In this document: positions 6,744-55,321 of the stretch, piece after piece
Layout: every line of letters starts with the position of its first letter
Position numbering within the stretch: position 1 is the first letter of the stretch
Notes under the pieces: generated by a model
What the model was told of the DNA's origin: nothing
The model's database searches: none
Seen by the model: only the letters and a program-made list of their open reading frames with translations
Made by a program: the position numbers and the translations under genes
Assembly: GCF_900105215.1 (NCBI RefSeq)
Contig: NZ_FOIP01000001.1
Span: 744,001-808,000, forward strand
Source of the DNA: Lacrimispora sphenoides
GTDB taxonomy: Bacteria > Bacillota > Clostridia > Lachnospirales > Lachnospiraceae
DNA length: 64,000 nucleotides
Direction: 5' to 3'

Positions 6744-7526
6744 CTATTCATACTCTTTATAAGCCTTCCGGTAAAAGTGCATCAGCACCTTTACGACCGG
6801 TCCCGGCCACATCTTTGAAAACATATGAGCTTCTTCCCGGAGACGGCTGTTATCCGCTATACAGGCCTTTGTCGTGGCCTCCCCGTGAACCCTGTAATAC
6901 AGGATCGGTTTTTCTACGCTAATAAAACGTCCCGGCAGTCCGGCTAATTGATAAAGCGTATCCCAATCCAGGGCAAACTGATAGGGAGAGTTAAAAAGAG
7001 ACTCACCTAATCTTTCCTTATTATATGCACACGCAGGACAGCAGATGGAATTGCCGAACATCAAAACACTTTTTTTAATCCAGGTTAAGTGGCTGATACG
7101 CCGGTATCGCAAAGGAAGCCTGAGAAAGCGTTTGATAAACTCCACCTTTTCAAAAACAGCGGGCTGGTTCCCCCTGATTACCGTATATCCACCTGTAAAC
7201 AGTGTCATATCCGGGTATTTTTCATAACATTCCAGAAGTTTCTTCACATAATCCTTCCGGTATAAATCATCCTGGTGAGCGATGGTAACAAAACGGGCAG
7301 AAGCCTGGTTATAGGCAAAATTCCAGTCTTCCCGTATATTGCTTTTCCCATACCGCACAAACAGCTGGACTCCGTACTTGTCCGCCATTTTTTCGATATA
7401 AGGGCTGGGCGTTGATGTGCAAATTATGACCTCCGATTTAACACTTTGTTTTAAAAGGGAACGGAGGCAGGCTTCAAGATATGGCGAATCTTTATATGCA
7501 CAGACCGCAAATGCATGTGGTTTCAT
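6744..7526 (-). CDS. Family 2 glycosyltransferase
   Basis: A 260-residue GT-A fold glycosyltransferase. The N-terminus (HAFAVCAYKDSPYLEACLRSLL) is the usual GT2 nucleotide-binding start, and a DxD-like motif appears as HQDDLY at about 84-89. No transmembrane segment is evident, so it probably acts at the inner face of the membrane on a lipid-linked acceptor, adding one sugar of the surface glycan. Donor and linkage are unknown. It is the first gene of the rfb-licD operon. Its ribosome site TAGGAGACAAAAT forms the end of the two-hairpin leader element at 7527-7615. Confidence 0.85.
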   Translation of the reverse strand: MKPHAFAVCAYKDSPYLEACLRSLLKQSVKSEVIICTSTPSPYIEKMADKYGVQLFVRYGKSNIREDWNFAYNQASARFVTIAHQDDLYRKDYVKKLLECYEKYPDMTLFTGGYTVIRGNQPAVFEKVEFIKRFLRLPLRYRRISHLTWIKKSVLMFGNSICCPACAYNKERLGESLFNSPYQFALDWDTLYQLAGLPGRFISVEKPILYYRVHGEATTKACIADNSRLREEAHMFSKMWPGPVVKVLMHFYRKAYKEYE

Positions 7527-7615
7527 ATTTTGTCTCCTAATGAATCAAGGGGATATACTTGCATATCCAGTTGATTCACATACTCAAGGTTGAAAGAAGC
7601 TTTCCTTTTAACCTT
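7527..7615 (-). repeat. Two-hairpin leader element, copy 1 (before the GT2 gene)
   Basis: On the minus strand the order is hairpin 1 (7586-7615; arms AAGGTTAAAAG and CTTTCAACCTT), a 7-nt linker, hairpin 2 (7541-7578; outer arms TGAATCAA/TTGATTCA, inner GGATAT/ATATCC), then the Shine-Dalgarno AGGAG and ATG. A second copy with identical spacing precedes the unrelated gene at 55198. Over the 75 nt of the two hairpins about 59 positions agree. Confidence 0.7.
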
Positions 7616-7649
7616 GCACCTCAAATGGGCTTATTATTATCTGGCTATG

Positions 7650-7658
7650 ATTATACCA
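7650..7658 (-). promoter_or_regulatory. Extended -10 promoter of the rfb-licD operon
   Basis: On the minus strand TGGTATAAT is a perfect extended -10 (forward 7650-7658). No good -35 is seen. Transcription would start near 7643 and include the whole two-hairpin leader. Confidence 0.55.
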
Positions 7659-53893: not shown

Positions 53894-55198
53894 TTAAATA
53901 TCCAAGTCTTTCTTTTCAGTTGTTCCCAAAAGGTGTGTAATAAACTGGCTTGCCGTTCTGCCTGATAAGCCTCCGTGGTTTAGTTCCCATATATTTGCTT
54001 TTGCATACAATTCTTCCAGAGACATGTTTATATCGCTGCGGGCGGCCAGCGCCCCTACGATCTCCTGGAACTCTCTTCTGTCCGGCGAGCCGTAATAGAT
54101 GGTTACACCAAAACGGGCCACCAGGGAAAGCTTTTCCTGGACGGTGTCATTATTATGTAAGTCATCATCCAGCTCCCTCTTGTCACTGAATTTTTCCCGT
54201 ATGAGATGTCTGCGGTTGGAAGTGGCATAAATCAGCACATTACCCGGTTTTTTCCCAAGGCCGCCTTCAATGATCGCCTTTAAATACTTATACTCCAATT
54301 CAGAATCCTCAAAGGATAAGTCATCCATGTAAATAATAAATTTGTAATTCCGATCCTTCACCTGTTCCTGGACCTTTGAAAGAGATTTGAATTGATGCTT
54401 ATAGACCTCGATGATCCGAAGCCCTCTGTCATAATATTCATTGAGCACGGCCTTAATGCTGGAGGATTTTCCGGTTCCGCTGTCGCCGAACAGCAGGACG
54501 TTATTGGCAGCCCGCCCGTTTAAGAAAGCCTCCGTATTTTCGATCAGCTTCTGCTTTTGGAGTTGGTAGCCGATGATGTCATCTAAATGGACATGTTCAA
54601 TGCTGGTGATAGGAAGGATCTGAGGCTCGCCGACTGCCTCCTCGATGCGGAAGGCTTTATTAAGGCCGAACTTCCCTACTCCGAACCTGCGGTAAAACTC
54701 TGTTATCACAGAAGCAAAAACAGTCTCATCCTCAGCTTCTTCCAAGGCAACGGCCAGGGCAACAATCTGGTCCCTGATCCTCTTATTATAGATCTTACTG
54801 CTGCCGTCTGCTGTCCGGTAATCGGAAAGGGCGGTCCATATCCCCTGTCCCCGATTTAAACGGTCCAGTTTTCGGATGTCATGATCAAACAATTCCTTTA
54901 TGACCCGGAAATCATGAGCAACCAGTTCATTTAAAGTCCCTTCGATGGGGCCTACGATCTCACAGGAGGTACTATAGGCATTTTCATTGTTTGCAAGGCA
55001 GAATGATAAAAAACAATGCCAGAGATTCCCCTCAAAGCCATAGGAAGCCGCCAGCTCAATGAGCTGACCGGCGCAGGCATAGGAATCCGGCATTGTTTCT
55101 CTTTCCGACCCCGATTCCAGGCTCAAAAGCCCGGCGATCTTGTCAAAAAGTTCACGATGATTCAAATTACGGTACAAAATCAATTCCTGGGATTTCAT
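53894..55198 (-). CDS. DUF815 AAA+ ATPase
   Basis: A 434-residue protein with an N-terminal helical region of about 200 residues and a C-terminal AAA ATPase: Walker A LLFGDSGTGKSS (near 235-245), Walker B FIIYMDDLSFE (near 290-300), sensor NRRHLIRE and an arginine-rich DKRELDDDLH. The DUF815 family is widespread and uncharacterised. The start at 55198 has AGGAGG. It is preceded by the second copy of the two-hairpin leader element and followed closely by ppx and ppk1. Confidence 0.85.
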   Translation of the reverse strand: MKSQELILYRNLNHRELFDKIAGLLSLESGSERETMPDSYACAGQLIELAASYGFEGNLWHCFLSFCLANNENAYSTSCEIVGPIEGTLNELVAHDFRVIKELFDHDIRKLDRLNRGQGIWTALSDYRTADGSSKIYNKRIRDQIVALAVALEEAEDETVFASVITEFYRRFGVGKFGLNKAFRIEEAVGEPQILPITSIEHVHLDDIIGYQLQKQKLIENTEAFLNGRAANNVLLFGDSGTGKSSSIKAVLNEYYDRGLRIIEVYKHQFKSLSKVQEQVKDRNYKFIIYMDDLSFEDSELEYKYLKAIIEGGLGKKPGNVLIYATSNRRHLIREKFSDKRELDDDLHNNDTVQEKLSLVARFGVTIYYGSPDRREFQEIVGALAARSDINMSLEELYAKANIWELNHGGLSGRTASQFITHLLGTTEKKDLDI

Positions 55199-55288
55199 AA
55201 TTTGCCTCCTAAATGAATCAGGCAGATATGCGGATATATCCAGCTGATTCACAAATTCAAGGTTGAAAGATGTTGTTCTTTCAACCTT
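55199..55288 (-). repeat. Two-hairpin leader element, copy 2 (before the DUF815 gene)
   Basis: On the minus strand: hairpin 1 (55259-55288; perfect 11-bp arms AAGGTTGAAAG/CTTTCAACCTT), 7-nt linker, hairpin 2 (55214-55251; outer arms TGAATCAG/CTGATTCA, inner GGATAT/ATATCT), then AGGAGG and ATG. The layout and spacing equal the copy at 7527-7615. Position 8 of hairpin 2 pairs A-T in copy 1 and G-C here. On the plus strand hairpin 1 is followed by five T. Confidence 0.7.
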
Positions 55289-55321
55289 TTTCCTTCTGTA
55301 GAATAATAAGTCACACAGCCC

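Follow-up and report, generated by a model that had tools for sequence, protein, structure and literature searches.

A structured mobile repeat family of the Lachnospirales that lies mostly before start codons and carries a probable replacement for the ribosome-binding site

Among the small repeats of bacterial genomes, REPs carry GGAG as a tag near the hairpin. They lie mainly downstream of coding regions, with neighbouring copies often in opposite orientation, according to the part of PMC3733652 available to us. The element described here shares with the REP/RAYT (Y1) system (PMC3733652) its multi-copy extragenic palindromes, and it too has a GGAG/GTAG-like tag near a hairpin; unlike REPs, it lies before start codons, forms head-to-tail series where copies adjoin and shows no relation to the presence of Y1 genes. 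In Streptococcus pneumoniae, convergent gene pairs are enriched for BOX, RUP and SPRITE repeats in the space between them, and the terminal inverted repeats of BOX and RUP resemble the ends of resident IS elements (PMC3049150, in the part available). They resemble the present element in being small, non-coding and interspersed with strong hairpins, and the modular A-(B)n-C build of BOX has a counterpart here in an optional central hairpin, whereas the present element is without inverted ends, mostly in sense orientation and located at the start codon (PMC3049150, same part). The TAACTGA repeats of the Beggiatoaceae are also mostly forward, a few nt upstream of the start codons of unrelated genes and overlapping the ribosome-binding site; those, however, are 7-nt direct repeats with little Shine-Dalgarno (SD) character, and the available part of PMC4679880 describes no mobile element with empty sites. 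MITEs are likewise short, non-autonomous, highly structured and multi-copy, but their defining terminal inverted repeats are not seen in the present element (PMC10969869, in part); in the available part of that review there is no mention of ribosom-, start codon, orientation or Clostrid-. A survey of ncRNA in 50 genomes recognises a class of multi-copy selfish structured motifs, a point of likeness, and the available portion of its main text contains neither Lachnospir- nor saccharolytic- (PMC11109978); the accessible portion of a stem-loop survey has nothing on such elements (PMC2267715). Among the results listed by our searches of open-access PMC, none described such an element.

The window analysed is a stretch of 64,000 nt of Lacrimispora sphenoides (contig NZ_FOIP01000001.1, positions 744,001 to 808,000), and the coordinates below count from its first letter. 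The initial annotation had pointed out two stretches of about 90 nt with the same order of hairpins, linker, SD and ATG, one before a GT2 gene and one before a DUF815 ATPase gene, and had read them either as a structured RNA with an effect on the initiation of translation or on mRNA processing, or as a small mobile repeat that inserts before ribosome sites. Re-measured, both are two-hairpin elements of ~93 nt on the minus strand that share the layout hairpin 1 (30 nt), 7-nt linker, hairpin 2 (38 nt), SD and ATG, and Pfam matches agree with the two genes named:

7524..7616, minus strand: element copy 1, full covariance-model match including the GT2 ATG (104.3 bits with model R1)
7586..7615, minus strand: copy 1 hairpin 1, from the fold
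7541..7578, minus strand: copy 1 hairpin 2, from the fold
7534..7538, minus strand: copy 1 element-borne SD, AGGAG, at the same place in SD-ended copies
7617..7622, minus strand: GAGGTG, putative native SD of the GT2 gene, pushed upstream by the insertion (from sequence; an SD of like kind lies beside the ATG in element-less orthologous loci)
7650..7655, minus strand: TATAAT-like -10 box (candidate promoter) upstream of copy 1 (from sequence; similar sequence upstream of element-less orthologues)
6744..7526, minus strand: GT2 glycosyltransferase gene downstream of copy 1 (PF00535, 5.1e-10)
55196..55289, minus strand: element copy 2, full covariance-model match including the DUF815 ATG (104.2 bits with R1)
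55259..55288, minus strand: copy 2 hairpin 1, from the fold
55214..55251, minus strand: copy 2 hairpin 2, from the fold
55205..55210, minus strand: copy 2 element-borne SD, AGGAGG, from sequence
55291..55295, minus strand: AAGGA, probable displaced native SD of the DUF815 gene (an AGGAGG-like SD lies near the start in element-less orthologues)
53894..55198, minus strand: DUF815 ATPase gene, start ATG at 55198-55196 (PF05673, 2.9e-91)

The reported agreement of the two copies at 59 of 75 hairpin and linker positions is exact, and the runner-up ungapped 75-mer on either strand of the window agrees at 37 positions, not counting one with 39 that overlaps copy 1. Both copies fold as had been described (z = -3.8 and -5.5, each against 200 dinucleotide shuffles), and the changed pair in hairpin 2, A-U in one and G-C in the other, is present. 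With copy 2 as query, blastn hits 11 places in the host genome, the top non-self hit having an E value of 5.8e-22. At copy 1 the GAGGTG of the GT2 gene (7617-7622) now lies ~90 nt from the ATG and AGGAG (7534-7538) occupies its former place; given the TATAAT-like box at 7650-7655, copy 1 would be in the 5' UTR. For the DUF815 gene, the longest open reading frame (53894-55252, minus strand) begins with a GTG at 55252, which is inside copy 2. The ATG at 55198 is the more likely start, and automatic annotation may therefore add 18 false residues.

The covariance search of the genome and its relatives that had been proposed did find further copies, in the host, in other genomes of the genus and in other genera. 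R1, a covariance model built from six copies, matches the host genome over its full length 16 times (E < 2e-4). Over 41 genomes it has matches in 10 at E <= 0.001, comprising 9 of the 25 same-genus genomes (host included) and one weak match elsewhere, with 35 matches in G011 (at least two of which come from an array read in reverse), 31 in G008, 30 in G002 and 19 in G014. In a pattern scan of named genomes at least three stretches matched; they belong to Lacrimispora celerecrescens and Clostridium sp. Marseille-P2415. A second model, R2, was made from 93 copies (matches at E <= 5e-9 from 86 chosen loci, alignment A5) and run over 392 genomes of the order, where matches at E <= 1e-4 occur in at least 8 genomes, including seven that do not belong to the genus; the scan scored 10 candidates per genome, so that its counts are lower bounds. 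Outside the genus the matches fall in five genomes of three other genera of the same family (g52, g67, g72) and, fewer and weaker, in two other families (two in G172, one in G040). The hairpin sequences of these extra-genus copies differ, the architecture is unchanged, and most copies end at or near an ATG. Rfam gave no match in the window, and when 7 and then 6 additional loci were tried with the limit relaxed to E <= 1, the element again had none (curated and permissive thresholds); neither element version matched phages and plasmids at E 1e-5, and viral contigs held no exact match to either pattern.

For the analysis of position we used 119 rows that remained after removal of duplicates, drawn from part of the listed R1 matches (>= 41.7 bits) with one from G040, which correspond to 58 sites. 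The element is ~83-93 nt long, or 117-158 nt where an extra central hairpin is present, and 10 of the 119 rows exceed 105 nt. The long variants (L022, L023, L025, L043, L048, L080, L099, L119, L122 and L132) have at least one extra central hairpin of the GTGCCCCGCTTTACCGGGCA type nested in hairpin 2, and at several of the same sites (parA, the TPR gene, DUF815) one species has the long form and another the short. G011 contains two head-to-tail arrays of four elements at a spacing of 83-86 nt (L064, L065).

Comparison of orthologous sites gives direct views of loci with and without the element. At recR, 5 of 25 same-genus genomes are filled and 20 are empty; the empty start reads TTCTAATTATG or a near variant, with an SD only at a distance, and the five filled starts read TTCTAA-AGGTTG...AGGAGACAA-ATTATG. 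The TPR gene, next after recR, is filled in 8 of 25 genomes and TTAGGAGATGCAAATAATG-like in the 17 that are empty, as in the example of empty TTAGGAGATGCA^AATAATG versus filled TTAGGAGATGCA-[element]-AATAATG; in G008 the filled site is TTAGGAGATGCA-GGTTG...TTAGGAGACA-AATAATG, and the rest of the eight are similar. mtnA was found in 14 genomes (3 filled, 1 relic), the DUF815 locus was read in 21 of the 25 (5 filled, 1 deletion form) and the GT2 locus in 20 of the 25 (5 filled, 1 truncated). At DUF815 of G007 and at mtnA and GT2 of G002 the hairpins have seemingly been lost by deletion with the element-type SD retained, a hint, though no proof, that translation relies on the new SD. In a second genus, copies with at least 95% identity over at least 81 nt to one query copy from G382 number 28 in G401 and 10 in G382, some at shared sites, and with 38 such near-identical copies the spread looks recent. 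We queried 21 G401 sites in G382: 16 were found, none with that copy, and about 4 of these 16 empty sites have traces that by eye resemble older copies. No terminal inverted repeats were found by eye, neither AAGTTTGAAAG against the right-end reverse complement TTTTGTCCTCC nor AAGGTTG against TTTGTCTCC giving a match. Filled and empty sites show no duplication beyond shared A residues, although A runs may hide short ones and the sites have diverged. On this comparison of sequences, the empty sites and the near-identical copies together establish a mobile, non-coding, multi-copy element.

The copies are strongly biased in strand and position. According to a rough automatic ORF caller, the first ORF after the element is codirectional with it in 111 of 119 rows; we checked the orientation of 19 rows by hand, including the eight others, and the remaining orientations rest on that caller. 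By site, 55 of 58 are sense to the flanking genes, and in the host genome all 16 copies are sense to the next ORF according to the same caller. Neither a lack of further copies nor copies scattered in genes, in both orientations and without conserved structure, was what we found, these being the outcomes that the initial annotation had set against its own reading; yet the orientation is antisense or unclear at 3 of the 58 sites, and one copy is embedded in an ORF. That copy, in L049 (G001), is GTATAC-ended within an ORF that reads through, and L189, from a named genome, has the same sequence. It should be borne in mind that the models and the blastn query contain the SD-ATG tail and hence favour copies at start codons.

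Two kinds of 3' end occur, an SD end (TTAGGAGRCAAAT) at 30 sites and a GTATAC-like end (GTATACAAAA) or another at 28. The start codon is at the end of the element in 27 of the 30 SD-ended sites (-4 to +2 of the model end), and these copies sit between the native SD and the start codon. The other-ended copies lie upstream of the native SD: 20 of the 28 have a called start, mostly 5-27 nt downstream of the element, with a native SD before it where read by eye. Upstream, a codirectional ORF ends -3 to +10 nt from the start of the element in 32 of the 91 rows that have one. Of the 39 second-genus copies, 19 have an SD-like hexamer (>=5/6 to AGGAGG) within the 14 nt on their left side, compared with 47 of 780 control windows. 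At the SD-ended sites of the first set this signal is modest (6/30 versus 75/1099 controls, p = 0.017), and at the other-ended sites of that set it is absent (2/28); a weaker or absent left-flank SD would be expected there if the displaced SD decays once the new one is used.

The second genus also shows what lies to the right. A start-codon triplet follows the GGAGGACA SD motif within 8 nt in 39 of 39 copies (ATG in 38), 29 of the 39 copies open into an ORF of at least 45 aa and 10 do not, and according to the rough caller 32 are followed next by a codirectional ORF of 90 aa or more. Among the other seven, a codirectional ORF of at least 121 aa opens at the element end in five (L286, L307, L312, L314 and L316), and the remaining two, L282 and L273, have no codirectional ORF ahead and both lie behind one. 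Two copies share one position in an unrelated palindromic repeat, whose free copies read AAGTGAAATATG, which is RBS-like, or GCCAAGTGAAATATGTGTCG, and whose filled copies read GCTAAGTG-[element]-ATATGTGTCG and GCCAGGTG-[element]-ATATGTGTCG. This spot resembles SD-spacer-ATG, yet it opens into only 3 and 11 codons, which argues for target choice by sequence and not by selection afterwards alone. The palindromic repeat is a separate second-genus family (TTTCACTAAGG...CCAAGTGAAATATGTGTCGC) that is seen at L354 1300-1520, L306 and L309.

What the genomes document directly is a multi-copy family with empty orthologous sites, near-identical copies in a second genus, a preference for strand and site, and hairpins that covary (below). 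The most reasonable account, and one that we consider highly probable, is a small non-coding mobile repeat that inserts preferentially in sense orientation at start-codon regions, with its own SD then serving the gene. In this account the main form would enter between the native SD and the start codon, the 3' tail of the element would bring a replacement SD, and the gene would probably still be readable; an insertion that otherwise destroys the ribosome-binding site could be tolerated because the element's SD serves in its stead. We infer from the sequences that the element SD is used in translation, and that the target, a purine-rich stretch, an A-rich spacer and ATG, is chosen partly by sequence and not through selection alone. 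The suggestion of a small mobile repeat entering at ribosome sites has in this respect gained strong support, from the many copies, their mostly sense orientation, the empty orthologous sites and the near-identical copies in the second genus.

The hairpins themselves are well supported. When 27 copies drawn from every group are aligned, 90.5% of the pair cells are paired and 23 of 27 pairs have two-sided changes, so that the further covariation looked for between genera is indeed present; the covariation score is 0.389, against 0.155 +/- 0.011 when shuffled and <= 0.107 when slid, in an alignment that was fitted to the model and hence leans towards it. An alignment of Lacrimispora copies only gives 91.8% pairing, two-sided changes in 18 of 27 pairs and a score of 0.163 against 0.130 +/- 0.004. 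Among orthologous sites (19 with at least two rows), paired positions differ in 386 of 4737 comparisons (8.1%) and unpaired ones in 429 of 1897 (22.6%). Of the one-sided stem changes, 145 preserve pairing and 177 abolish it; a further 15 changes are two-sided and preserve it. Unpaired positions have 239 transitions and 201 transversions; from the transition share we estimate chance pair-keeping among one-sided changes at ~27%. These comparisons share ancestry and are not independent, loops that differ in length may be wrongly aligned, and the effect of re-copying could look like constraint. It is likely, but not settled, that the stems are under constraint in place after insertion. Predicted accessibility of the RBS averages 0.56 in filled and 0.50 in empty sites over 15 site pairs (higher in 8 of 15, p = 0.20) and is higher in 5 of 8 comparisons at four Lacrimispora genes. 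We had considered a role as enhancer or insulator acting through RBS accessibility and set it aside, as the predictions for filled and empty sites do not clearly differ.

These observations bear on whether the element is instead a cis-regulatory leader RNA (a protein-binding or processing site, a thermosensor or the like) that has been copied before many genes for its usefulness. The strong covariation, the slower change of paired positions, the retention of pairing after one-sided changes above the ~27% estimate and the placement before start codons would all fit. The 16 downstream proteins of the host genome, however, share no Pfam family: they are GT2, DUF815, IF-2B-like mtnA, recR, PFL-like, CvpA-like, 3D, ParA-like, phosphotriesterase, Asp23, TPR, MCP, GMP synthase, weak TadZ-like, DHODB-type reductase and D-Ala-D-Ala carboxypeptidase, unrelated genes that rule out a common function. 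Many sister-species orthologues do without the element, some copies lie behind a gene or inside a non-genic repeat, the predicted RBS accessibility does not clearly change, and no Rfam family corresponds; we consider a leader RNA of this kind unlikely. The interpretation in the initial annotation is supported in part. For its other reading, a structured RNA that would act on translation initiation or mRNA processing, stems that covary and change slowly in place speak for the structure, but the lack of a common function among the 16 genes and of a clear difference in predicted accessibility speaks against the action. An ordinary miniature transposon that inserts at random, after which selection spares none but the sense copies whose SD lies at the start codon, is a further alternative, and a rather doubtful one. 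The SD end would make exactly such insertions harmless, and the GTATAC-ended copies lie upstream of the native SD, as selection would allow; but random insertion should also yield harmless copies of either orientation where convergent genes meet, as is the case for BOX, RUP and SPRITE (PMC3049150, in the part available), and neither the start-codon triplet within 8 nt of the SD motif in every second-genus copy (39/39, 38 of them ATG) nor the two copies in the identical RBS-like spot of a non-genic repeat is what it would predict.

How the element moves can be weighed against the same data. The hairpins would be the structure that is recognised, with single-stranded DNA or RNA as substrate, as the strand preference suggests. 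An IS200/IS605-type (PATE/REP-like) element, moved as ssDNA by a Y1 transposase that targets a GGAG-like motif, would account for hairpins near both ends, strand preference, a target-like motif at the right end and the lack of terminal inverted repeats or clear target duplication, and Y1 genes are present in 24 of the 33 genomes examined. Their presence is nevertheless unrelated to that of the element: the carriers G008 (31 matches), G014 (19), G371 and G172 have none, and all 9 examined same-genus genomes without an element match have Y1. Moreover, element ends were seen at 0 of 30 fetched Y1 loci (further Y1 matches exist), and in the 39 copies examined by eye the SD-like motif lies at varying distance from the left end, where no fixed tetra- or pentanucleotide target was encountered. 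A Y1 transposase as mobiliser is thus unsupported, and we think this type of element improbable. Y1 is itself in many copies in G011, G001, G012 and G007 (10 to 19 matches per genome, several equal-scoring), unrelated to the element. An RNA-borne, SINE-like origin, in which a leader RNA is reverse transcribed at SD-ATG-like sites and its own SD-AUG 3' end pairs with the target as primer or guide, seems to us quite unlikely. It agrees with the strand following the transcript, also in the two copies behind a gene (L273, L282), with the SD, A-rich, ATG pattern common to right end and target, with the lack of inverted repeats, and with partial copies at 96-98% identity that keep the right end (L361, L355 and L314, of which L361 and L355 are one site). 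Right ends may, however, persist only through the need for an SD, and for L317, which looks truncated at its 5' end, a deletion is the better reading. Taken as evidence for reverse transcription, 5' truncation has too few cases and is confounded by the SD requirement. The search for a mobilising enzyme, which covered the Y1 transposase family in 33 genomes, found none. Nor was an autonomous parent found among 10 half-element stretches of the second genus, which, judged from their junctions, are copies that have decayed or undergone deletion; in one of them, L354, the ORFs were inspected by eye and include no transposase.

Returning to the small mobile repeat with sense insertion and its own SD, we tentatively propose that it may represent a class of mobile element that targets the translation initiation region. 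Such an element would recognise SD-spacer-ATG in single-stranded form (perhaps on mRNA, as a bacterial counterpart of SINEs), insert in sense between SD and start codon and survive through its replacement RBS, having swapped the 5' leaders of dozens of genes across the Lachnospirales. As an object it is a variant of the small interspersed repeats, and its targeting and enzyme may be of a new kind.

The repeat family is real, mobile and structured, and combines an unusual target with a built-in replacement ribosome-binding site. The small bacterial repeats with which we compared it lie mostly behind genes or between convergent ones, whereas this element sits in the most delicate bases of a gene, mostly in one orientation, and compensates the host gene with a new SD. 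If confirmed, this would show how numerous genes can have their 5' leaders rewritten together by a selfish repeat and still not be silenced, would provide natural insertion experiments on the effects of leader hairpins in translation and mRNA decay, and would point to a mobilising activity whose target resembles a translation start. The two genomes with near-identical copies, G401 and G382, make that activity testable.
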